Notes under the pieces: generated by a model
The model's input: only the letters and a program-made list of their open reading frames with translations
Databases searched by the model: none
Told to the model about the DNA's origin: nothing
Made by a program: the position numbers and the translations under genes
In this document: positions 1 through 64,000 of the stretch, one piece after another
Position numbering within the stretch: position 1 is the stretch's first letter
Layout of the letters: every line of letters begins with the position of its first letter
NCBI GenBank assembly: GCA_950295325.1
Contig: OX485803.1
Coordinates: forward strand, 17,422,001 to 17,486,000
Direction: 5' to 3'
DNA from: Polytrichum commune
Lineage: Eukaryota; Streptophyta; Polytrichopsida; Polytrichales; Polytrichaceae
Length of the DNA stretch: 64,000 nucleotides

Positions 1-3000
1 CATCTCATCAACTAATTTTAGTATTCATCGTCATTGGTGCTAAACCTCTCATAATTTATTAGTCTTATTATGACATTGTAAATGATGTTGAACATGTATC
101 TTGATAGTATTGGAAGGTGCACAGTTGTATCCTAACCTTTCACATTGTAAATTTTATTACAAGGTTTGAATGGGACTATAGTTGAATGTGTTTGTGAACA
201 TAATAAAATTATATATTTTAATATTTTAATATATTTTTCTTGTATTTGAATGCAACGTTACCTTGTTTTTTTGGAGTTGGTAGTTGTGCAAAATTGCATA
301 TCTTGTCATAACTGATTGTATTTCTTGTTTTGTTCTATATATGTTTACAACTTGTTTATTTAAGCTTGTATGATTTCTTATCTCCATGTTTATTGGTTAC
401 TTTTTAACTAGTGTCCAAGTGCTATTGGTTGTGTTGTGAATGGTATTTTGAATGGTTTAGGATTGTTATCACTAATTGAAACCAAATGAATTACAATTTG
501 AATGGTATGGAATGTTTGTCGCTCACATAGTTGGTTTCTCAATGCTATAGTATATATTCCGTCCACTATTTGGTACTTGTACAATTTATTAAAAAAAACA
601 ATGAAAAAACAAGCCTCTCTAAACAATTACAAATAAATATAGGCTGCTAAAAAATATGCCAAAGTAATTTTTTAATCTACAAATAGGGAGGGAAAATTTA
701 TTGAGAGGTGGATAAATATCCCCTCATTGAATACCCCATTATCGCACGTGGTTACAAAATGTAAGGGTGTGTGATCGCCCCAAGCTTCAATGTGCATGAT
801 TTCTGACTAAGCCCACTTCTCTTAGGATATGCAACACGCAATCACTACGTGATGAGTAGCAAATACAAATCAAGGCTGTAGTTGCTTTCCTCGCAATTTT
901 TTGGAGCTCATATGAGTATCCTTCTCAAATATTTCAAAGTGAAGATTCCCATGCTCATTCAAGTGATCACATAGGTCCCCCCACTTAAGAATTGAGTATT
1001 GAACCTCAAACGTTAACTTATTTTGAGCACGTAGTACAATCTCTTTGAACACATGTCTCTTTGGTATCCATTCTTGGTGCCACACCTAACCATGTACTAC
1101 TCACATCTAGGAGTTTGATGAAATTAAGTAACCAAGCTAGGCATGTCTACCTCAGTTTTTGTGGTTGCGTGTTCAACATGGTCCTAACAAAGGGTACTTC
1201 CAAGCACCCAAGATAATGCAAATATTGATAGCGCCATGGACCACATCCTTGTGATGAGGGAGTGATTCAACATGTACAATGCTTCATATTTGAAACTAGA
1301 TTTCAGGTAAGTAGAGGTTTATACATAACGTTTGGACACAATGACATGTATGCATGTATTGCTATCAGTGGCACCCGTGGTAAAAATGTCAACATGCAAC
1401 TTTAGATGTGAACTACAACTCTTGTTGTGCTTTTGTTGCATGTGTATTGTGTTAGTTGTAACAAAGTGTTTTGTGAGTCTAACATAACATTAAGTAGCAA
1501 TGCTAGTGGGGCACCTTTTGAGTTTCCACAATATTACCTTAACAAAAAGGGAAATGTTTTGCAAAACCATAGTGAATGAATGGAGAATCAATAAAAAATA
1601 ATAGCTTAAAATAGAAGTGGTTTCCAATGCGGGTGTTGGGAGACTTTTCTAAAAAGTACAACCACCTTTTCGACCTCACCAACTTTTCATGTTGCTTTAT
1701 AGTTATTTAGATTTGTTTAGATTATAATTTCGCCTAGATTGGAATCTTTACCGCCACTTGGCATTAGTTATGTCCTAGAAACCAACATAATCAAATCCAA
1801 GTAATGAAAGTAACCACCTAAATAATAATAAAATAGCCTAAGAAAAACTCAAACATAGCGCCACCTTTTTCTCGAAAGAGCATCAAACTAGCGTGCACCG
1901 AGTTGATGCTCTTTTGAAAAGATCATTCCAGGCTTGTTACTTAATGCATAGATCTTGAACATAATGACGTTATGTACATGTGGTTCTATTGGCAAATACC
2001 ATACAATCAAATTAACAAACACAACCTCAGGTGTGGACTAATAACTGTGGGTAACAAGCTTTTATTGCATGTGTACTATGTCATTTGTGACATTTGTTTC
2101 CTCATAGCCTCCATCGTACACTTTATCACATGGTTTTAACATATAATCACCATCCAAAAAGTAAGAAGCACATACAAGCATCAAGGGCAACAAGGAAGCA
2201 AACACACTTGAGAATGATGGCACCGCCAAAGACTCCGTTACCCATGTACCTCTCATAACATGTAGCACACACAATTATGTATCAAATAGACCCCCCCCCT
2301 CCCCCTCATCAACAAACCTCACCAACGTAATTAAAACCCTACAATCCTTCATACAAAAGGAAGACACAAGACACATGGTTCAAGCAATTCAATAATATAA
2401 ATATGCGGAGAAATGAATTAATGGCGACCAAATCAACCAAAAACTATCATACCATTTTTGGAGACCCCACACATCACTAACGCGCATATAACACAAAGCC
2501 TAAAATCTAGATTTGCCCAATATATGAGCAACCACAAAAGAATATATTTTAGCCAACATGTACACAAATCCTAATCATAAACTATGTCACAAAAATGACA
2601 TATGGCCACATCCACTATCCTTATGTGACATAAAAATCCTCAAAAGTCTTAGAATAGCAAGACAAAGGACACCGCCCACCAATTGACTGACCTACTCAAA
2701 TCTTGTTTCACACACGTCACATCACTCACAAAGCCAACCCACAAAATGACAAACCCCCAAAAACACACCACACCACCATGGATCCTTAGTTGTACATGCA
2801 TCAATACAAGACGTACATGCATGCTTAGCAAACCTTAGACATATTATATGCATAAATGGAGCCGCACTTGTACTAATTAGACCATTAATCCTGCCAACCG
2901 ACCTCCATCCAAATCATAAAATTCACACTCACGCAAGATAGATATTTTGACCAAGCCATTTAAAAAAGACAAATATAAACCACTAATAGAAGCTATCCGA

Positions 3001-5050
3001 GGCCAAGGATGGAAAGTCAATCCCATAATGGTCATCATTGTGTGAGTAAGAGGAGCCACACATACAAATACCATTGATGGACTAGAAAACCTACACATAC
3101 TCACATCATTAATCAATAAATTTATGAAAACAAACACCAATTAGCTATAAAATACCTTGCGGCACCTCATCTTAAACAAACAAAAGTAGGACAACAAATA
3201 AATACATGTATCCTCCCCTCAAGAATAATGTATCTAATTAAACTTTACTAACTAGGCTACATTAGTATTAATGTACTTTTTTTACCAAGTAAAGATGTTA
3301 ATGTTCTCTAATGTCCAAACAACCAATTCAACCTTGGTTTGGAAAAGAATGAGATGCACAGTTTACAGCTAATAGAATTGCGTAATTCCAAGTAGTAAGT
3401 GACACTAAATATCATATTCAATGTACCTCCCACATTCATCAAAATCCAAGCGGCAGTTGTTGTTTAGAAGAAATTTGATAAGGATGGCAGCATGTGATGT
3501 TTTGAGATGCATACCACACGGGAATGTTATGGGTATGCTTTCCCCCAAAAAGCACTAAAACAAAGATTCGGGGAAAAAATGACTTTGTTGGGAGGGATCA
3601 TAGATCAAGTTGTTGCTCCAGCATATCTTGACAGGAGCGAGAACATGTAACTTGGATTGATCCAAACGTTGAACTCGGTCGCAAGCTTAAGCTTAAGCTT
3701 CATCTCAAATTCAGATAAAATTATTTTTGGTTGAAAAGTGATTTTCATGCACGATGTATCGATAGTGTATGAGCTCTGTTTTCTACAAGCATCAAGAGTT
3801 TCATCACTTACGGGGGGGCCGATATTTACACTTGGTAGTTATCTCACAAATCTCAGGTTCGGATATGGACGAGACTTGAATTGAAGTTGTTGTATCGCCT
3901 GTCTACAACAACGTTTCAGGAGTGCAGATGTTGATTTGAGAATCATAGCTCGTAATATTTGGATCGCATTCTGCATGCTCGCCCTTGCTCCCGGATGTTC
4001 GGCTGTATTGATCAACAACTACACCCCCAAAACAGGAAAAAAACAAAACAAAACTGAATTAATTGAGTTGCTAGGTCTATTTTATCATCTATCTACTGAC
4101 AAAACTTACGCTTATAAGATAGGTACGTGAGATTGAGATGCGAGACAAGAATTATGGAAGAGATTGAACCAAGAATCATGCATCCAGATCCCCACATCTT
4201 GAAAGTTCTGTTACGTTGAATTGGGAAGTTTTGAAAGGCGTGAGGAGAATACTTGTAAGATATAAAGACAAATAATATCATCTGATAGATCCAACATGGG
4301 TACTATGTACGGAACACCTTCTGCAAGAACAATGCCAAATTTTCCTTCTACCGCAATAGTTATGCTGCACAAAATTTGTGTGTTTTTGTAAGTAATCCAT
4401 ATTTCACATATGTCACAATCCGGAACTGTGCACATAACATTATTCACCGAGCTTTTTATGTGTTGTGAGCCCAGGAAATTGGAGGGACTTGTGGTCATGA
4501 CAAATGATCACGTGCGATGCTACATTTTAGTTGAACCCTAAGAATCCAGCTTGGATGTGATTATGTATAGGAACTTGAGAACAACATCTTGAAGTTGAAC
4601 GATGTTATGCATTTAGAGATGGACAATCATTGGTTACTGTACATTTCATCATGAGCATAACACAATTTTAAACTCAAATTTTAAGTTCAAAGTTTTGTTT
4701 TAACCTGGTGTAAATACTCGAGGTTGAGCACCATTCTCACAATATTTCATCACCTTTGTACATTGATAAACTCGAAAGCAAGCTTGAGTCAAACCAAAAG
4801 GATAAATTGTGAATAGAATGTGATTGTGAGGTACCTCATAAGCGCCGCAATACCAAAAGCTTGAATTCTAGGCTCAATGTGATGGAGGAATGGTAAAAGT
4901 GTCTCAATAGCTTTCAACTTGATAGCTTGGTCTTTTCCGACAACATCAAAGCTAGTAATCACCCAACAACATTCACCATTAGCATCTGCTCACAAATAAC
5001 AATGCCATTCAATGCCAATTCATCACATAACATCACCCAACACCCACTAT
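1..5050. other. AT-rich non-coding stretch
   Basis: I see no gene here on either strand. Open frames are short, lack plausible splice signals and do not resemble known families. A fragment of a dispersed repeat lies at 1053-1102 in reverse orientation; its core reads like 'tatccattcttggtgccaca' and recurs elsewhere in the window. A short C-rich tract lies near 2290. Confidence 0.6.
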
Positions 5051-53939: not shown

Positions 53940-55167
53940 ATATAAGGCCCACGTGTGGGAGCACACGAACACCAAAAGTTCCGGATAGGCGTTTTTCAAT
54001 GCCTAATCCGGTCTGTCCGGATGATCCGAGTATCGTCCAGGGATTCTGTGAAGTGCAGGATGTCAGGGACACACTTTTCCTGCTTGAAAGTCGACCACCG
54101 GCCGGATCGGCTTTCCGGATCCGGATAGTCCTTTGGAAGTCCTTGTTCCGGGACTTGCCTTCCGGATTGAACCTCTCTAATTAGGTGTTACTCCTACATG
54201 CATCTTTCCTCAATACCTTCCTTCCTACTTCCTACCTCCATTTATGATTGGGGTTCATCCGGTGAAGACGTCCCTATATGGTCAGAATCCGGATTTCTCT
54301 CACAACTAGTCCGGATCGGCCTAATCTTTCCTGGCAGGTCACACAGAGAATCCGGATGGTTCCCGGAACTACAACGATAGAAAGGTCAATATTCGGCCGG
54401 AGATCTGTTAATCCGGGATAAGTGGGCGATCCGTGCCACTTTCCGGATGGCCCCGCCCAGGACCCGTGAGACCTCTTCAGAAGATCGGATGGCGTAAGTC
54501 TAGCACCTCCCTGATCTTACCCAGTCCTAACGACGGCTATCTCACATGGACGTTACCCAGGCACCCGGAATGATGAGGTTTCCCTCCCACTACACGCCGG
54601 AAATGCTCCCCGGACCGGAAACCTAACCGTTCCGGTTTCTCTCCTCCTTCCGACAGATCAATCCGGCTACAACGAACTTAGGCTCAACTAAGTCTGAAAT
54701 AACTGGGCGATCCGTACCACTTTCCGGATTGCCCCGCCTAGGACCCGTGAGACCTCTTCAGAAGATCGGATGGCGTAAGTCCGGCACCTCCTTGATCTTA
54801 CCCAGTCCTAACGACGGCTATCTCACATAGGCGTTACCCAAACATCCGGAATAATGAGGTTTCCTTCCCACTACACTCAAAAAGGAGCCATAGTACTGTA
54901 GTCGGATCCGATCCAGGTTTCCTCTCCTTTGTCCTATCCGTACTTCCTATTCATCCATTCCCTCTAGATCTGCAACATTCTCCTAACAGTCCGTGCACAA
55001 AACAAGTCATAATAGATGGAGAACTAGAGCTTTATTGAGTAGGAAGCGACAAAATACAACATCGGAGAAGAGAACCCTTCTCAAGCTCCTTATTCAACCT
55101 TAAGTAGAGGCTTGCAATCCCTAACTAATGGTGGCGGCCTAGGCACGTAAAAAACCCCGGGCAGCGG
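53940..55167 (-). mobile_element. Internal region of an LTR-type element with a 172-bp direct repeat
   Basis: The composition changes abruptly at about 53940: CCGGA words become frequent and GC content rises. The segment 54424-54595 is repeated at 54705-54876 with about 92% identity ('gggcgatccgt.ccactttccg', 'agaagatcggatggcgtaag'). The right edge (minus-strand start) is ccgctgcccgggg at 55167-55155, which matches the 3' part of the primer-binding-site-like word seen at 56540. No long frame is open here. I read it as a truncated non-coding interior of a retroelement. Confidence 0.4.
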
Positions 55168-56108
55168 TGTCGTAGTGTAAATACGTACATTATTTACATG
55201 TGTACGTATTTTGTGTTTCATGGTGATTCCTTCATTTGGAGATGAAGGAGGAAAGTAAAAGGGAGTAGAATTAGATTACCTTTTTGTTACTCATAGTTAT
55301 TCTTAGTAACTTTTAGTTTATCTTTTTTATTCTTATCTATCTTTTTACTCTTAGTTTACTTTTATTACCCTTTTAGCCTTATTTCTAGTTTTATCCTTAG
55401 TTTATCTTTAGACCAATAGATAATTAGAAATCACGTGATGAGGATAAGAGGAGGATTTGAGGCCTTATCTCATATATGTGGTTGAGGAGAAGAGAGTGGG
55501 GAGAGACAAGTTTTTGTTGTTGTTGAAAGCTCGACGGTTGTTGTGTGTTTTTTTTTTAGAAGAAAACTTGAAATAAAATATGCAATTGAGTTTTCATGTG
55601 ATTGTTTTATCTTGAGTGTTTACATGCTTGAAGGAGAGTGAGCGAAAACAAAGTTGTGCTAGTTTGAGTGGAGGGAAGTTTGCTAGCTCTTGCATAGAAA
55701 GAGCTGTGTCGCGGCCCACATTTTCGTAAAATCTTAAGTAACCTTGTTTTAAGTTTAAAGAATAGGTTTGACCAAGGAAAACATTATAAGTAGAGTACTT
55801 TATAGGTAGATTGTTAGGTAGGTTATTTAGAATTGAGAAGAAAAATTAAAATCCTTAAAGTAGTTAAAAACATCAAATTAAGTTAGTGTTAGGAATTCCG
55901 TTTCCGAGGCGAAACGGAATTCCTAACACTAACTTAATTTGATGTTTTTAACTACTTTAAGAATTTTAATTTTTCTTCTCAATTCTAAATAACCTACCTA
56001 ACAATCTACCTATAAAGTACTCTACTTATAATGTTTTCCTTGGTCAAACCTATTCTTTAAACTTAAAACAATGTTACTTAAGATTTTACGAAAATGCGGG
56101 CCGCGACA
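55168..56108 (-). mobile_element. LTR-like segment carrying a large palindrome
   Basis: On the minus strand it starts TGTCGCGGCCCGCATTTTC (56108) and ends CTACGACA (55168), giving TGTCG..CGACA termini like many Gypsy-type LTRs. A purine run, aaaaaggggtga, precedes the start, as a polypurine tract would, and a primer-binding-like word follows the end. Its first 198 nt are repeated in inverted orientation directly inside (see the palindrome entry). The LTR assignment is inference from the ends; a second full copy with matching interior was not found. Confidence 0.4.
55707..56108. repeat. Near-perfect palindrome, two 198-nt arms with a 6-nt centre
   Basis: Arm 55707-55904 and arm 55911-56108 are reverse complements without any indel; by eye I count three mismatches (near 55718, 55748 and 55856), so identity is about 98.5%. 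The centre is cgaggc at 55905-55910. Both outer ends carry the TGTCGCGGCCC word that also starts the LTR-like segment at 58127. The RNA of either strand would form a hairpin of nearly 200 bp. The high identity means the structure is young. Confidence 0.95.
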
Positions 56109-56565
56109 TCACCCCTTTTTCAATTGGGAGCGTCCCCGCGAGCATATAGAATCCTAAACCTTAGTATTGGTTCTAATGCTCTTAGGAGGTGGAAAGCAAC
56201 CGTCCTTCTCAATTCTCTCAATTTCTTACAAAACCTCTTGGTCCTCTCAACGCCTCTTAATCCCTCTCATCTCTCAATTCCTCACAAAACCTCTTGGTCC
56301 CTGTTGCAATCTCAGTCCCCCTCAAGCCTCTTAAATTCTCTCACAACTTGTTGCAAACCTTAGTCCCTCTCAGTTTCCTCTCTCTGCTGTCAGATACCTC
56401 TCTGTTTCTCTGTCCGGTCCACCCTCACACAGTAGTCGCCTCCCCGTACAGCAGCCGCCTCCTCGCACAAATGAGAGAGGGTTTCCTCCCTCTCCCGGCT
56501 TTTATAGGGAGCGGGCTTATTTTCGCGCTGTCTGGTCTCCCTCGGGCAGCGGCGCCAAAATCACA

Positions 56566-58127
56566 TGTCGTAGCACGGTGGTGACGTATTCATTAAATTA
56601 ACCTGATAAATGCATAAAACGTCACAGCCGCGCCAAGTTCGTTCCCACGAAGAACCTGCGGTTGTTCACAACACAGAAGGAGGAAATCTTTCACTAACAC
56701 ACACACAAAAAACACCAGAAACTAAAATAACACAAATCGGATTAAGAAATCCAGGATATTACGGAAAGTATGGCACGGATATTTCCGCCTTTCCGGTAGT
56801 GGACCGAGGTAGGGAACACAACACAGGGTATGGACAAGTTCCCACCCTAGAGTAGTAACAACAATAGACTCAGCGTCCTGAATCCATAGTAGAACAACTA
56901 TATACACTCGATTCTAAGATTTCTTATTACGGGTCATGACTTCCGGGATAAGGTTTCCACGATAGAGGTAGCGGATCTTACCTGTATTTCCACTATCCGC
57001 TAGATTTTCGACCGTGTCACAAGGACCATAATTCTAGTATTTTAGGCTAGAATGCTCAGAGAGACTTGGTAGTTGTTCATCAGGATTTCACCCTTTGGGT
57101 TGATTTCTTAGGGTTGTCTCTCTATCTCCATTTCCTCCTTCTAACTACTACTCCCTTAGACTGGTGTTATGATGGGGACAGGCCTCCCTCGGGAAGGTGT
57201 CCCACTCAGGTATCCGACACGTGCCACCCCCTTTGACGGGGGAAAAGATGGAGGAAGTTTTGGGTCTACAAAATCAGCTTGATCCGATTTCCATGATGGC
57301 ACAGTTTCCACTATACCACACACGGAAACCGAATCCTCCCTCGAGAAAGGTGGAGACACAACATCTTCGCTCCTGTCCTTACAATGGATAGCTTGTGTTG
57401 TTCCACAGGTCACACAGGATAGGACCTAAGGTCTATTGATTTCCGTGACGGCGGGACTAACATAGGGATGGGGCTACCACGCCTACCATCCGCGGTGGGA
57501 ACCAAACGCCAGTCGCGGCAGGTGCATGAGTGTTCTAGACCAGTCTGTTACTGTTGATCGGTGTGATCCACCTCCAGGTCACGGCAAGCGGAAGGCGTAA
57601 ATCAGAACTCTCCCCCTACTTTTGGACAGGTTTATCCACTGCTGCTCATTGTCGGTCCCTAGTTGGACGGAGTAAGTGGGGAAGAACCTACCGTGTGTGT
57701 GGAACTTCCCTTGCCCAACAACCCCACGGTGGGGGTTCTTTCCCCTTGCTCGGCCAATCCTTTCCTCCTTTCCGCGCTTACGATTCCTCCGCCCATCACC
57801 TGCTCACACAGGGGCGTTTCAACCACACGCACCTCGGGGTATTATTGTCCCCATGTCCTATCACGGAAGACTAACCTAACCAACCTACACAGTGATAGGG
57901 AATGGCAGAAAACTCGGAAACCTCAAGTAGGGGAAGGAGAGACCGCTTGCATTACACATGTACTCAAGACTCAACTCAAACCGAAGGTGAAGTAAAGTAT
58001 AAGGTCCAAATTGAACAAAAGAACATTTGCATTGCAAAATGATGAGGAAAACACCGAAGTGCTCCCTCTTAAACCAAACTAACATCCACATGCTATGGTT
58101 TCCATGCTGAAAATGCGGGCCGCGACA
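56566..58127 (-). mobile_element. Second LTR-like segment with the same terminal words
   Basis: On the minus strand it begins TGTCGCGGCCCGCATTTTC at 58127 and ends CTACGACA at 56566, followed eight bases later by TGGCGCCGCTGCCCGAGG (56557-56540). That word resembles the TGGCGCCG-type primer-binding site of plant Tat/Ogre-like Gypsy elements. A TATA-like CTATAAAAGCC lies at about 56507-56497, and GAGAGG-rich leader-like sequence continues to 56120. Apart from its ends it is not similar to the segment at 55168-56108, so the two may come from different families. The frames inside are not supported as genes. Confidence 0.35.
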
Positions 58128-58505
58128 AGCTGAGACTTCGACCGTTCACAAAAAGACGGACAAGTCTTTGTTGGCAACAATCCTTTGAGAGAGTAAGACT
58201 TATTGATAGATTTGTTTTGTAAAGATTTGAAAGATTGAGGAAGTTTTGAGGACAATTGAAAATTCGACGGTCCGACGAGCGAAACCAATTGCAGCCAGAA
58301 GCCCCGTGCTTTTCTAAAGCGGACCCCTCTCTCCACGACAGCGGGAAATCCGGAAACGCGTCCTTCGTAAAATTTCCGGATCTCGATCCGCTTTTCGCGC
58401 TGACAAAAATTTGAATTTACAATTTTGCCAAAAACTTAAAAGGGTTATCCTTAATCCTACCTGCCTAATCCTGATCTTCCGAATGCTAATCTACCTAAGC
58501 CTAAT

Positions 58506-60593
58506 CTAAGTGGTGCGATGTTTCTTCGAAGCCGTCCCTTCCTTGGATTGACTCGCGGGCCCGCTGATGGCGGAAGAGCCTCCCCCGGGGGTCAAAAGTC
58601 GTCGCTCCTGCAGCCTCGTAAATACCCTCCTCATATTTGGGGAGGGGGCGACCTCTTCTTCAGAATCGTCTGCCGCGGCCGGATCCTCTCCCGATCCGTC
58701 ACCTAATCCGGATCGCGCTGCACCGGAAACATTCTTCTCCTTCCGGGACCTCTGGCCAGGTGAGGGGTCACTTCCGGTGGCCCGCTCCCTGTTCCGGCCA
58801 CATGAGACGGAAGTCGTCCGGGGATCCCTGGCGGACATTGCATGTGAGGGTGGAGGAGCCCACGGCTCCACGATCATACAATCGAGAGCGGGGGTTGGTG
58901 AAACCTGCGACATCGGTGCCTTACCCCTATCCGGTGTCCTCATCCTTTCCGGAGTTTTGGCCCTCTCCGGCGTTTGGGACCGCCTTGACGCTCTATCCTG
59001 ACCCGGATTTGGTGATTGTCCCCGTCCGGACCTAGCTGACCGTTCTGTACTCTACCGTCGAACTAGGGATGAGCAGGGCCGTTCCGGAACAGGGGTCTTC
59101 TCTCGATCCGGAACTCTTCCGGATTCCGGTGGCTGGGAAGTTCCGGCTAGCTGACTAGGCCCCGCACCCGCCTGAGAGGACGGTACTAATTCCACCTCCC
59201 CTATAGCCTCGTACAGAGTGCCTGTCGGAGATTCGGGTGGACCCGGATAGAGCATCTGCCTCGGGGTACCACCTGGCAGCAGCTTCTGGATCTCCTTGAA
59301 CAGATCCTTCATCGAGTGGGAGTACTTTACCAAGATTGGGAGCGTTTTATGGGCGGAAGACGGATCCGCTGATTCCATCAGTTGGTCGTAGAGGTGTGCC
59401 TTGTTGACGATTTCTCCCGGATGGCCCACCAATTTCCGGACCCGACTCAGAACCACAACTTGTTCCACCTGGTACTTCCGGATTTCTTCGCTCTTCTGGG
59501 CGAGCTCGCGGGTCATAGCGGCCACCCGTGCCTTCTCCGTCTCCAGGGTCTCCACCTGTTTCCGGTCTGTCCGCTTGGCCAACTCCCGGAGGATATTTCC
59601 GGGTCCACAATTGCCTAGGGCCCTATTCACTCCCCGAGGGATGTGCTCCATCCGGAAGTATTGGTTCTGGAGCTCCGTCAACTCATCCCGGACGCGCTTA
59701 AAGGGGGCTTTCGGAAACTCAAAGGTGGAGAGGTTGATGTCCTTCCAGGGAATTTCCCGGCTGGGTCCTGCTTCCTGTCGGGGCGGTGGCGAGGCGGGTT
59801 TCCGGACCTTCGGAGGAGACGAAACCGGAGGTGGTTCCGGAACCACTGTGTCGCTCGAGTCCTTTGTTCCGGTATCCGCAACTTCGACTTCCGGACCGAT
59901 CTTGTACACCACCTCATCTTACGCTATTGTTAGCATGTCCTCCTCCGCTTCGTTGATGCAGCCGTGGTGCTGGTAGAGGTGGAGGATGTAGGGGGAAAGA
60001 ATGGAGGGTTTCCGGCCAATGTGGGGGATGGATTTCTCCACATACTCCTGAATTAATCTACCCCAATTTACAGGCCGAACTCCGGACATGGCCCCGAACA
60101 GGGTGTTGGCCATGGTAATGCTGAGCCGCTTGGGCTTTTCCGGACTAAGGATGGAGAGAATGAATTTGATGACTCTCCTCTCTCTAAGGTTCCGGCAATT
60201 CCTGGGATGGAATACGTCCTTCGGATCCGGGTCCGTTCGGAATTTCCCTACGTAAAAATTATCCCGGCGGCTAGCCCAGCCCTCGCCCTTTCCTTTCGGA
60301 AATCCGTAAACCCCAGCCCATACCTCCGACGTCCATTTCTCCGGCTCCTGCCTCATTGTCCGAATCCACTGATTGCCTCTCTCAAACATGAATTCCCTCA
60401 ATGTGGCCTCCGCCCGGAGATTCCAGGGTTTGGCGAGTAATCCTTCGCAACCCATCCGACTAAGGTCCTCTATGAGCTCCTTCAGCTCGGAATCTCTCTT
60501 CGGGGTGGCCGGCGATACCGGTTTCACGGGAATTGGGACCTGCTCCCTCTCATCTTCCTCTCGCGCTTCCGGCATTGTGCTTCGCACCCTCAA
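58506..60593 (-). pseudogene. Transposon-type ORF ('putative plant transposon protein' domain), broken by two stops
   Basis: One frame on the minus strand runs 696 codons from 60593 to 58506, interrupted only by TAA at 59919-59921 and TAG at 59052-59054. The N-terminal third (MCEGLLAKPWNLRAEATLRE, then RPVNWGRLIQEYVEKS) resembles the plant transposon-protein domain carried by some large retroelements. The middle part is helical with heptads (REIPWKDINLSTFEF, then RKQVETLETEKARVAAMTRE). The C-terminal part is a disordered S/P/R/E-rich tail (SEEEVAPSPNMRRVFTRLQE). GC content and CCGGA words are far above the rest of the window, which fits a recent insertion. No protease, reverse transcriptase or integrase is nearby, so it is gag-like or accessory at best. 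Confidence 0.65.
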
Positions 60594-61386
60594 TCCTCTA
60601 ACAATCCCTGGCTTCTTCCCTCCAGAGTTCTATCCGCTAACCACTAAGGAATCCCAGCAAACCAACTGCTGGTGACTCAAAAAATAGCTCACCACTCGTT
60701 CTCTCGACAATGCCGCTCGCACAAATGGCTCGGAGAAGGAGAAAAATGTCTTTAAGTACTCTCTCCCTCTTCCTCTAACGGGCATGGGTCCGTAACCGTT
60801 TCCTCCGTAACGGGCGTTGCTAGGGCATGAGCGTAGATTTTCTGAATTTCGAGCGGAGACTTTTTATTTTTAGTAATAAAATTTCCAAAAATAAAACATT
60901 ATTATTATTAATGGTATATTTCTCAGAATATCCAAATATTTGAGCCTTATGGCCGTGGAATTTAGTACCCATAACCGTGCAAAATGGGCTTGACATATGG
61001 AAAAAATTTATATGTGACTGAGTTTTGGAGGAAATAGCTGACTTCATTGAAGAGAACTACAAGGGCACATGTTCACGGAAGAGCACAAGTGAAGGACAAG
61101 TACAAGTGATTCATAAATTTAACATAGCGAAAAAATTATATATATTTATATTTATATATATATTTATATTTATATATACGTATTCACTAAATTGTGAAAT
61201 TACATAGAGTGACGTGTGTCATACACGTTTATGAAAAAGAACATATATATGAGACTAATAAATAAAGCTGATTACTCTAAACTGTAGCATGGGCTAAGAT
61301 CCCCCTTTCAAGAATTGTTTTCACCTCCAAGAAACTGAGGGTAGGCGCATGCATGAAGAGGTCATGGTCGGCCTCTAGTTTGCAGA
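60594..61386. other. Non-coding gap with an AT-rich microsatellite
   Basis: The left part (to about 60820) continues the CCGGA/CpG-rich composition and is probably the leader of the broken transposon frame. The composition then falls to AT-rich. A (TA/TTTA)n tract lies at 61137-61180. No gene seen. Confidence 0.5.
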
Positions 61387-64000
61387 CTTGTACGTATATA
61401 TAGTAAAGATGCTTACAAGGTCAGAATGGACACCCGCGTCTACCCAGCTTAGCCATTGTCTCTTTGAACGCCGGGCAATTGCAGTCTGGGTAGGCACTGA
61501 TTGAGAGATGGTAAACTGACTCTGTGGGAGCTGGTTTAGATTGCAAAGTTACAACGCATCCAAAACCGGGTTGAGGTATCATTACTACCTTCAAAATACT
61601 TGCCTTCATTGCTCTAGCGGAATCAATGTTCTGCATGTGCTTCGAACTGGCACAAGTGATTGAGCGGCGCATGTTCTTTGACTTTCGTGTTTTAGGATAA
61701 ACGTCCGCATTATCTGGCATTGGAACCTATGACAGATCCGGTGGCGGTGCTGAACTGTTGAACGTGCGGCTCACAGGAACGCTTTGCTTTTGGGGAAGTT
61801 GAAATCCCGCATTCTCCAACGCCTCAATCTCGGAACGTGTGAGATTGGTCCCTATCTTCACAGGCCAAACCGACGGGATGGGAGGTCGTTCCTCGTAATC
61901 CGAAAATGGCTCTATCCATCGTCAACGATACCCCTTCACACACCTCTCAATATCGTCAGCACAGAAAAAAAAAAACTGCTCTACCACCTTCTGGTTGCCT
62001 TTTTGAGGGTGGGTCCAAAGGCCAGTGTATGTGGGAGCTGGTGTGCTCTTCCCGTTTTGGACGATACGGACTGTACACTTTTTTCGAGTGACAGCCATCT
62101 GCGCCCAACAAGCCTTCGCAGAAACCTTATTAATTCGGGCAATGTGCCATATCTTCTCATTCACACGAGTCTCCTCCACGGCCGTCACCCGTCCAATATC
62201 TATGCCAGTTGAGGCAGGGGGCTGTGCTGGGCGTTCCACTTCCACGTGAACTTCCTCATGGATGGTACTCAAATTTTGAGCACGAGCACGTGTCACCCTC
62301 CGACCCACTCGAGGACGTGAAAAATTAACAGTGTCTGGCCTATGAGTTTCTTCTTTGGCGCCAAGGGGAAGATCCGGCTTCCGTTTCCTCGACCCAAAAA
62401 CCTCAGCTCCTTCGAGGTGTGCGTTTCGAGTACAGAAATCTTCGGTTCCGGGCATGTTCAAGACGGCTGTGTTCAGGGTAGTCGGATCCCCGGTTCGGTG
62501 AGCTCGGCGTTGGGCTGTGCGAAGTCGAAGTTCTTCTCTCGAGGGTCCAGAGCCTCCCGCTCCACCTTTGAGGTATTGATAGTACCCCACCACTTGCAGG
62601 AATGCTCTAACGTAATCGTCGACGGCTGCCACGTAGAGATCGCCACCCCTATTGCCGGACGCTTGCAACCATTTGTTGTGAACGGTCTCAGCAAGGTTGC
62701 AAGAGGGCATTTCAGCTAGTTCATCCGGAGAATATTTCTTCTCCTGTACGAAGGCAACTGTTTAGAAAATGTTCGGAAACTCAAGTGAGCAAGGAGTAGT
62801 CGTGGTGGGCCATGCCATTTAAAAGCAAAAGATTTAATATTGTTTAGATACTACATTAGACGCAGAGAAAAGAATGCAAACTTAAAGAATTAAATAATTT
62901 GAATGAAAGAGTGTATACTTACCAGTTCCATGAATCCACCCCACTACCTGTATCGGAAATACCAAAACGCAAGCCAGTGGTTCAAATGGTGGAGGCCAGC
63001 GTCAGAGGTGGCACCCGAAGATGTCCACCAGGCTTTGATTGCCAAGTAACGTGTTTCAGCCTTTGCCACAGACCGTGCATCTTTGTACTGCATACACAAT
63101 TTCTTGTGTTGATCTTGCAATTCGTGCACGATGTATTGTTTGGTGTGTTTTTCTAGGGATTGCGCCTAGTGGAAATAACACGTTCGCTCGCAGCCTTCCA
63201 TGGGTATCTTTGGGTCTCCGGATCCGTAGATGATGCGCACAGCGTTCCAATTGGCTTGCGCACTATCAGCCATGAAACCTTTGAACTGCGGCTTGTGTAT
63301 TCCATGCCTACCCATGACATGGTTAAGGTTCTTCCAAAAAACGAGTTGAGCATCTTTGTCCTCAGACTGGAAATCACAGCAAGCAATGGTGAGTACACGT
63401 TGGTAAGAGGAGTCGTACACGTAGCAGGCCATGGTGGTCCAATTGGCAACTCGTTTGACGTGGTCGAACATCATCCAGGGGTGCTCTAAATCGCCGCTAG
63501 GTTGCATTCGGCGGACAAGGTCAACACCGCTGCCAGGTCCCACCTCGGACATCTTGAATATGAAGACCTTGTCGGAGTCGTCACCTTGGCCTGGAAACAT
63601 GTTTCGTTGCACGTAGGCCCAATTGCTAAGCCCTCTGAGCTTAGTGATGCCATCAAGAACGCCATATATGCGCAAATACTTGAAACTGTAGACACGGTTT
63701 TTTAAGTTAGGGGAATTGAGCTCCTTGCAGCATTGGAAGATAGGCTCTAGCTGTTCGAGAGAAAGTAAGGTGGGAGGATCGTCTTCTTCGCGGAGCAAGA
63801 CGTTACCTAAAACATCCTTGGACGTTTCCAAGACTATTTTGGAAATGGTAGCCTGCGGGTTGCGCTCAACATGTTGTTCGATAAAATCGTCGATTATCTT
63901 CCGCGTGCCCCTATAGTCTCCTACCTTGACAGGATGTTTATGGTTGCCTACATGGACGCAAGCACGCTCTTGCGTATCATCTCCAAAAACGTAAAAGATT
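61387..64000 (-). pseudogene. Mutator-like transposase, SWIM zinc-finger type, copy 2 (runs off the window)
   Basis: On the minus strand the frame is open from the window edge. It has an N-terminal ACVHVGNHKHPVKVGDYR segment, then YDSSYQRVLTIACCDFQSED and KGFMADSAQANWNAVR, which match the DDE-type catalytic core of MULE transposases, then CERTCYFH before a stop at 63166. The frame continues with AQSLEKHTKQYI to WLAFWYFRYR and a GTAAGT donor. An intron (62922-62744) leads to a second exon with EKIWHIARINKVSAKACWAQ, KIGTNLTRSEIEALE and a SWIM finger CNCPAF..CKH near 61400. Five in-frame stops occur (63166, 62944, 61922, 61727, 61421), yet there are no frameshifts. It is collinear with copy 1 at 16.2-17.9 kb but more complete. 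The element's ends are not visible. Confidence 0.8.

Follow-up and report, generated by a model that had tools for sequence, protein, structure and literature searches.

A Ty3/Gypsy-type insertion in Polytrichum commune with a palindromic U3 end, probably formed by self-priming during reverse transcription

Results

A 2421-bp insertion in an older solo LTR

The window, a 64,000-nt stretch of Polytrichum commune contig OX485803.1, contains an older solo LTR on the minus strand (55168-58340), which reads TGTCGTGGAGAG...CTACGACA and is bounded by a 4-bp duplication, CCGC, at 55164-55167 and 58341-58344. This outer LTR received a second element, also on the minus strand: an aberrant, deleted copy of a Ty3/Gypsy-type LTR retrotransposon, 2421 bp in length (55707-58127), with the target-site duplication AGCTG on its left (55702-55706) and right (58128-58132). 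The insertion is missing from all five copies of the outer LTR that were fetched (L013-L017, with L016 and L017 lying 6.9 kb apart on one chromosome); in each, the sequence corresponding to window position 55706 runs unbroken into that of 58128. A probe of the two joined flanks aligned over 80 of 80 nt at 97.5% in all five copies, and the empty site reads AGCTG in three and AGTTG in two. Given these empty sites and the AGCTG on both edges, 55707-58127 is a single insertion with a 5-bp duplication. The preliminary description of this DNA had caught a palindrome at the left end of this unit and missed the unit as a whole, which is a single insertion comprising a 5′ LTR, a primer site and a polypurine tract between AGCTG duplications. 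It had also noticed that the word that begins the palindrome arms recurs at 58127, which is correct, and had assigned this position to a separate LTR-like segment; the sequence there is the opposite terminus of this insertion, seen on the minus strand.

The flank immediately left of the palindrome, 55407-55706, is repetitive, with matches in all 40 of the candidates scored, out of 127. In the outer LTR family, the target duplication appears to be 4 bp long (CCGC at this site), as opposed to 5 bp in the nested family. Just outside the outer LTR, a 178-nt direct repeat (54418-54595 and 54699-54876) is 92% identical between its two copies, which are 281 nt apart.

Anatomy of the element

Read along the minus strand, the element consists of a deleted 5′ LTR, a primer-binding site (PBS), a 3′-UTR remnant, a polypurine tract (PPT), U3 nt 1-209 and an inverted copy of U3 nt 198-1. 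The 5′ LTR (56566-58127) starts with TGTCGCGGCCCGCATTTTC and ends with GTGCTACGACA, and its tail is 93% identical to the family LTRs L021 and L022. These family LTRs are ~3.8 kb long; the 5′ LTR here is without ~2.24 kb (about LTR nt 20-2257) that they carry, and its deletion junction lies in a short imperfect repeat, GGCCCGC...TTTC. The PBS, TGGCGCCGCTGCC (56545-56557, minus strand), is complementary to the 3′ end of tRNA-Asp(GUC): 13 of 13 nt pair with a tRNA-like 3′ end plus CCA, this 3′ end is present at 21 genomic places, and ARAGORN predicts tRNA-Asp(GUC) at each of the three that were fetched. Because no complete two-LTR member of the family was found among the relatives examined, the primer-site assignment is based on the window sequence and its match to the tRNA.

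Joined directly to the primer site is the 3′-UTR remnant (56122-56544, minus strand), which is homologous to L024 and L025; gag and pol are absent from the 2421-bp unit. L024 carries the homologous stretch between its LTR and a Gypsy-type pol frame that encodes an RNase H, an integrase zinc finger and an rve-type integrase core (Pfam), upstream of the same 3′UTR-PPT-LTR arrangement. Allowing up to 3 mismatches, the genome has a single LTR-PBS-3′UTR joint of this kind. It falls in GCTGCC, a word common to the primer site and the 3′ UTR of L024 and L025; the loss of gag-pol could be explained if a transfer at the primer site went astray to GCTGCC in the 3′ UTR. The PPT, GAAAAAGGGGTGA (56109-56121, minus strand), abuts LTR nt 1, and the same tract precedes the LTR in L018, L019 and L020. 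Larger cuts around these three loci (L023-L025) contain the 3′UTR-PPT-LTR arrangement, with no family 5′ LTR in the fetched stretch. The 3′ LTR is truncated to U3 nt 1-209 (55900-56108, minus strand; aligned to 47 family rows), includes the right arm of the palindrome and ends with GTTTCGCCTCGGAAAC, the fold-back point.

The unit can be assigned to Ty3/Gypsy at the superfamily level: it has TG...CA LTR ends, a tRNA-Asp primer site, a PPT beside U3 and a 5-bp target duplication, and the related L024 has RNase H followed by integrase upstream of the same 3′UTR-PPT-LTR. Unlike a standard member, it has no gag or Pol with RNase H and integrase of its own, the 2421 bp being filled by LTR, primer site, 3′ UTR and palindrome; it also lacks two direct, near-identical LTRs, its 3′ LTR consisting of U3 nt 1-209 plus an inverted copy, so that both ends are of the LTR-start type. 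Judged by its sequence, the unit is a deletion derivative without autonomy. Among the four family LTR units examined for 5-bp duplications, L010 (ATTAT) and L022 (TACTA) have exact ones and L021 and L055 match at 4 of 5 bases.

Rfam returned no match at 54000-58500, and Pfam none at E 0.01 for the four window ORFs and two LTR ORFs tested. A 256-aa reading frame in L022 (342-1112, plus strand), inside the 3.8-kb LTR unit 163-3961, has no Pfam match and shows 35% identity over 209 aa to the window ORF at 59919-60629 (minus strand). Long open frames at 63166-63999 and 61922-62761 of the window (both minus strand) look transposon-like by eye, with no Pfam match at E 0.01.

A 402-bp palindrome at the 3′ end

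The palindrome, first described as two 198-nt arms with about three mismatches, no indels and a 6-nt centre, was reproduced in its coordinates and counts. The left arm (55707-55904, plus strand) is an inverted copy of LTR nt 1-198, with the element's integrated terminus at its outer edge; the right arm (55911-56108) differs from it at arm positions 12, 37 and 147, with no indels. Between them, the centre CGAGGC (55905-55910) is a native loop of the LTR, which in the sense direction reads GACTCG in the family and GCCTCG here. The predicted RNA fold of the 402 nt has an energy of -309.6 kcal/mol, compared with a shuffle mean of -71.1 (z -44.5; matched by 0 of 100 shuffles). The palindrome is far outside chance expectation. 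It had been characterized as an LTR holding an inverted copy of its own start; the inverted copy is there, and the wording needs amending in that the 3′ LTR is truncated at nt 209 and its remainder replaced by that copy. Both chromosomal joints of the insertion read as the LTR-start type of end.

The U3 alignment of the family comprises 47 rows from 46 fetched loci, the two halves of a tandem duplication in L055 entering as separate rows; L057 was unmatched, and L018-L022 were excluded because the loci that they duplicate were already included. The turn sequence, GTTTCGACTCGGAAAC, is present in 32 of the 47 rows and the exact pattern GTTTC-N6-GAAAC in 36. The 11 rows without the exact pattern include L001 and L002, the closest to the arms, in which the last base of the 5-bp pairing is missing. 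Complementarity of this kind, with at least 5 nt, is rare: it is found at 0.05% and 0.08% of 44253 breakpoint pairs in two family sequences that keep the pairing, L022 and L004, and at none in L021, the same copy as L001, because a variant breaks the 5-bp complementarity there. The predicted hairpin at the turn is weak and does not stand out from shuffled sequences, of which 51 and 31 in 200 fold equally well; the most favourable predicted structure uses another register, TTCCG/CGGAA. An argument from hairpin stability was dropped in view of this weakness.

The arms share variants that set them apart from the family. Both have G at nt 20 and T at nt 79, neither of which is found in any of the 47 other rows, and the C at nt 200 in the loop is likewise in none of them. 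At all three sites where the arms disagree, one of them keeps the base most common in the family (45, 46 and 45 of 47 rows) and the other departs from it, as would fit two arms that started out identical. The arms differ from each other at 3 positions, and the nearest of 46 comparable rows at 5 and 6; since this margin is small, it is the private variants that bear the argument for a single molecule. Their differences are those expected if a single sequence had been copied and mutations had followed.

Relatives in the genome

The genome searches covered 408 Mb in 64 contigs. The start word proposed for finding other LTRs of this kind is indeed present elsewhere, TGTCGCGGCCCGCATTTTC at up to 2 mismatches occurring at 66 genomic places, 3 of them within the window (reversed control, 0); a second inverted copy was not found at these places. 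The only head-to-head pair within 20 kb among the 66 is the window's own, and the only other opposed neighbours under 60 kb are one diverging pair 51 kb apart. A search on both strands for the pattern of the fold-back centre, which finds the exact turn point only, returned this place and no other. All 12 family copies fetched with their flanks have a single arm that continues into LTR sequence. In the outer LTR family, inspection by eye of 27 exact LTR starts gave no head-to-head pair within 20 kb. These recurrence counts are lower bounds, as diverged starts are missed and one search scored 40 of 105 candidates.

Two candidates for an intact two-LTR relative were set aside. A putative LTR pair at C7:16916595 and C7:16922237 is a tandem duplication with a period of 5642 bp. 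This duplication (L055; G000:C7:16912500-16922400) spans a whole LTR unit and its flanks, and its repeats show 100% identity across the 4259 bp that the fetched sequence allows to be compared; it is either very recent or an assembly duplication. The second candidate, C1:15187512, taken at first for an LTR plus primer site, is an LTR with a repeated tail unit that has CTACGACATGTGATTTTGGCGC inside it. In L058 (170-420), the LTR tail unit occurs three times, ~78 bp apart, and two of the joints read CTACGACATGTGATTTTGGCGC, as if the U5 end and the start of the primer site had slipped back into U5 during reverse transcription.

Origin of the palindrome

The inverted copy runs to LTR nt 1 and there meets the target duplication with no base between, which points most strongly to self-priming at the time of reverse transcription, with integrase then joining two U3-type ends to the chromosome. 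That the palindrome formed before integration, by whatever route, we hold to be very likely; that it is a misbuilt retrotransposon end made by self-priming during reverse transcription is probable. A template switch during reverse transcription, one of the origins first suggested, is supported by the palindrome ending at LTR nt 1 beside the 5-bp duplication and by a centre that is a native inverted word of the LTR. An order in which the cDNA fault came first and integration second is also the simplest, because a later event would have to erase ~3.6 kb of LTR and halt on that very base.

The proposed course is as follows, although its exact strand order has an even chance of being right. Plus-strand DNA, primed at the PPT, would begin at LTR nt 1. 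Some 209 nt further on, the growing 3′ end, GAAAC, would come loose and anneal to the GTTTC 11 nt upstream, and the self-primed strand would copy itself back to its own 5′ end. The folded strand would then switch, at the U3/PPT border, to the ordinary template and be extended across the PPT and 3′ UTR, forming an atypical minus strand. This passage from the hairpin end to rcPPT would be a second template switch that leaves no trace, and it is the least certain step. Second-strand synthesis would yield a duplex whose outer end is an LTR-start terminus, TGT...ACA, and hence a substrate for integrase, which would attach both the fold-back terminus and the ordinary start of the 5′ LTR to the target and so give the AGCTG duplications. 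It is a balanced question whether self-primed plus-strand strong-stop DNA replaced the normal minus-strand start in this way, to give a two-U3-ended cDNA that was inserted concertedly with a normal 5-bp duplication. Elements of this course have precedents: a report on Ty3 describes a PPT that primes more than once and the accumulation of dead-end plus-strand strong-stop DNA (PMC5371799), and one on HIV-1 describes self-priming of minus-strand strong-stop DNA (PMC4668388). More than one fault is needed here, since the 5′ LTR and the 3′ U3 differ in sequence, 2.24 kb being deleted in the 5′ LTR. With R-U5 missing at its 3′ end, the copy should have been dead on arrival, with no further transposition, in line with the absence of a second case in the recurrence searches. 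Against the self-priming reading count the weak hairpin at the turn, the narrow margin by which the arms resemble each other more than they do L001 and L002 (3 differences against 5 and 6), its being a single case, the lack of a complete two-LTR family member and the 11 of 47 rows without the exact pairing.

Two separate truncated cDNA ends might instead have been joined before integration, by end joining or LTR-LTR recombination, with no self-priming. Such joining accounts equally well for the AGCTG duplication and the U3-type end, and the dead-end plus-strand strong-stop DNA described for Ty3 would be plausible material (PMC5371799); the missing last base of the pairing in L001 and L002 also speaks for it. 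However, both truncations must then hit the native 5-bp complementarity, which only 0.05-0.08% of breakpoint pairs have, and both molecules must carry the variants absent from 47 rows, though sister molecules from one RNA could do so. We regard this origin as unlikely.

The remaining origins are weaker. Short inverted words can seed fold-back replication, and a complete element could have integrated normally and acquired the inverted copy later, through a break or a replication-fork hairpin in its 3′ LTR. Such copying must, however, replace the remaining ~3.6 kb of LTR and stop on the last base before the target duplication, when it would be expected to overrun LTR nt 1 into the PPT and 3′ UTR; the hairpin-mediated duplication suggested earlier is not supported as a post-integration event, an exact stop at the integration boundary being unexpected, and we consider it very unlikely. 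Near-perfect inverted repeats are a known long-read artefact, which gives some ground for suspecting a fold-back in assembly or library, but the flanks of the arms differ, each as predicted (one is PPT and 3′ UTR, the other the target duplication), the arms have three separate mismatches, and a stop on LTR nt 1 next to AGCTG is not what one would expect of an artefact; this we take to be highly improbable. Insertion of one LTR, or a solo fragment, into another LTR merits next to no credence: the region is truly nested, in that the 2421-bp unit sits in an older solo LTR, but AGCTG flanks that whole unit and neither arm singly, and the inner boundary at LTR nt 198-209 is no element end, so the earlier suggestion of this kind fails.

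From the duplication, the order of the element, the turn, the arms and the joints, we read the insertion as the fossil of a faulty Ty3/Gypsy reverse-transcription product that was integrated once. The case is one of an aberrant LTR-retrotransposon cDNA integrated through a fold-back U3 end; it is real, explained and, so far, single.

Comparison with known systems

In Foldback and MITE DNA transposons, each end of the mobile unit carries a long terminal inverted repeat. Membership in these groups was rejected, as the inverted arms here are adjacent at one end of the unit and 12 of 12 family copies are single-armed. DIRS-type elements are not known to make a target duplication, and this class was likewise rejected, given the 5-bp duplication and the rve integrase core in a related pol. 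The likeness to DIRS-1 is the presence of inverted LTR sequence at element ends; DIRS elements have a tyrosine recombinase and circular intermediates that are thought to integrate (PMC5633606), whereas the present element duplicated 5 bp of its target, has a relative with an rve integrase core and acquired its inverted copy as an accident of a single copy.

Closer in mechanism is the self-primed, or snap-back, minus-strand strong-stop DNA reported for HIV-1, in which a nascent reverse-transcription product folds on a short hairpin and copies itself (PMC4668388). Here, by contrast, the strand would be the plus strand, the element is from a plant, the pairing lies in an inverted word of the LTR as opposed to TAR, and the product was integrated. 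No description of an integrated, self-primed fold-back LTR end was recognised among the titles and abstract openings of the literature searched, and comparable faults of reverse transcription are described there only for unintegrated DNA, in Ty3 (PMC5371799) and HIV-1 (PMC4668388); the present example is chromosomal and has a target duplication. It provides evidence from nature that a cDNA bearing U3-type termini on both sides can be inserted by integrase, and a route by which an LTR element could form a hairpin locus in one step.

The hairpin locus derived from an LTR-retrotransposon fragment, Skipper-1, in Dictyostelium is similar and has been suggested as a source of small RNAs (PMC5633606). 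In the moss Physcomitrella, many 21-nt loci are reported to map wholly to the arms of one inverted repeat, whereas loci at LTR elements produce 22-24-nt siRNAs and need DCL3 (PMC2600652). That the palindrome's transcript might be a source of small RNAs against its own family, as the preliminary description suggested, is a reasonable idea and no more. If the self-priming reading is true and general, it would be a side route that yields palindromic, hairpin-encoding insertions in one step, any of which might give rise to double-stranded RNA directed at the family it came from. If the arms were identical at birth, they also provide a small clock, with 3 of 198 sites changed (K ~0.015).
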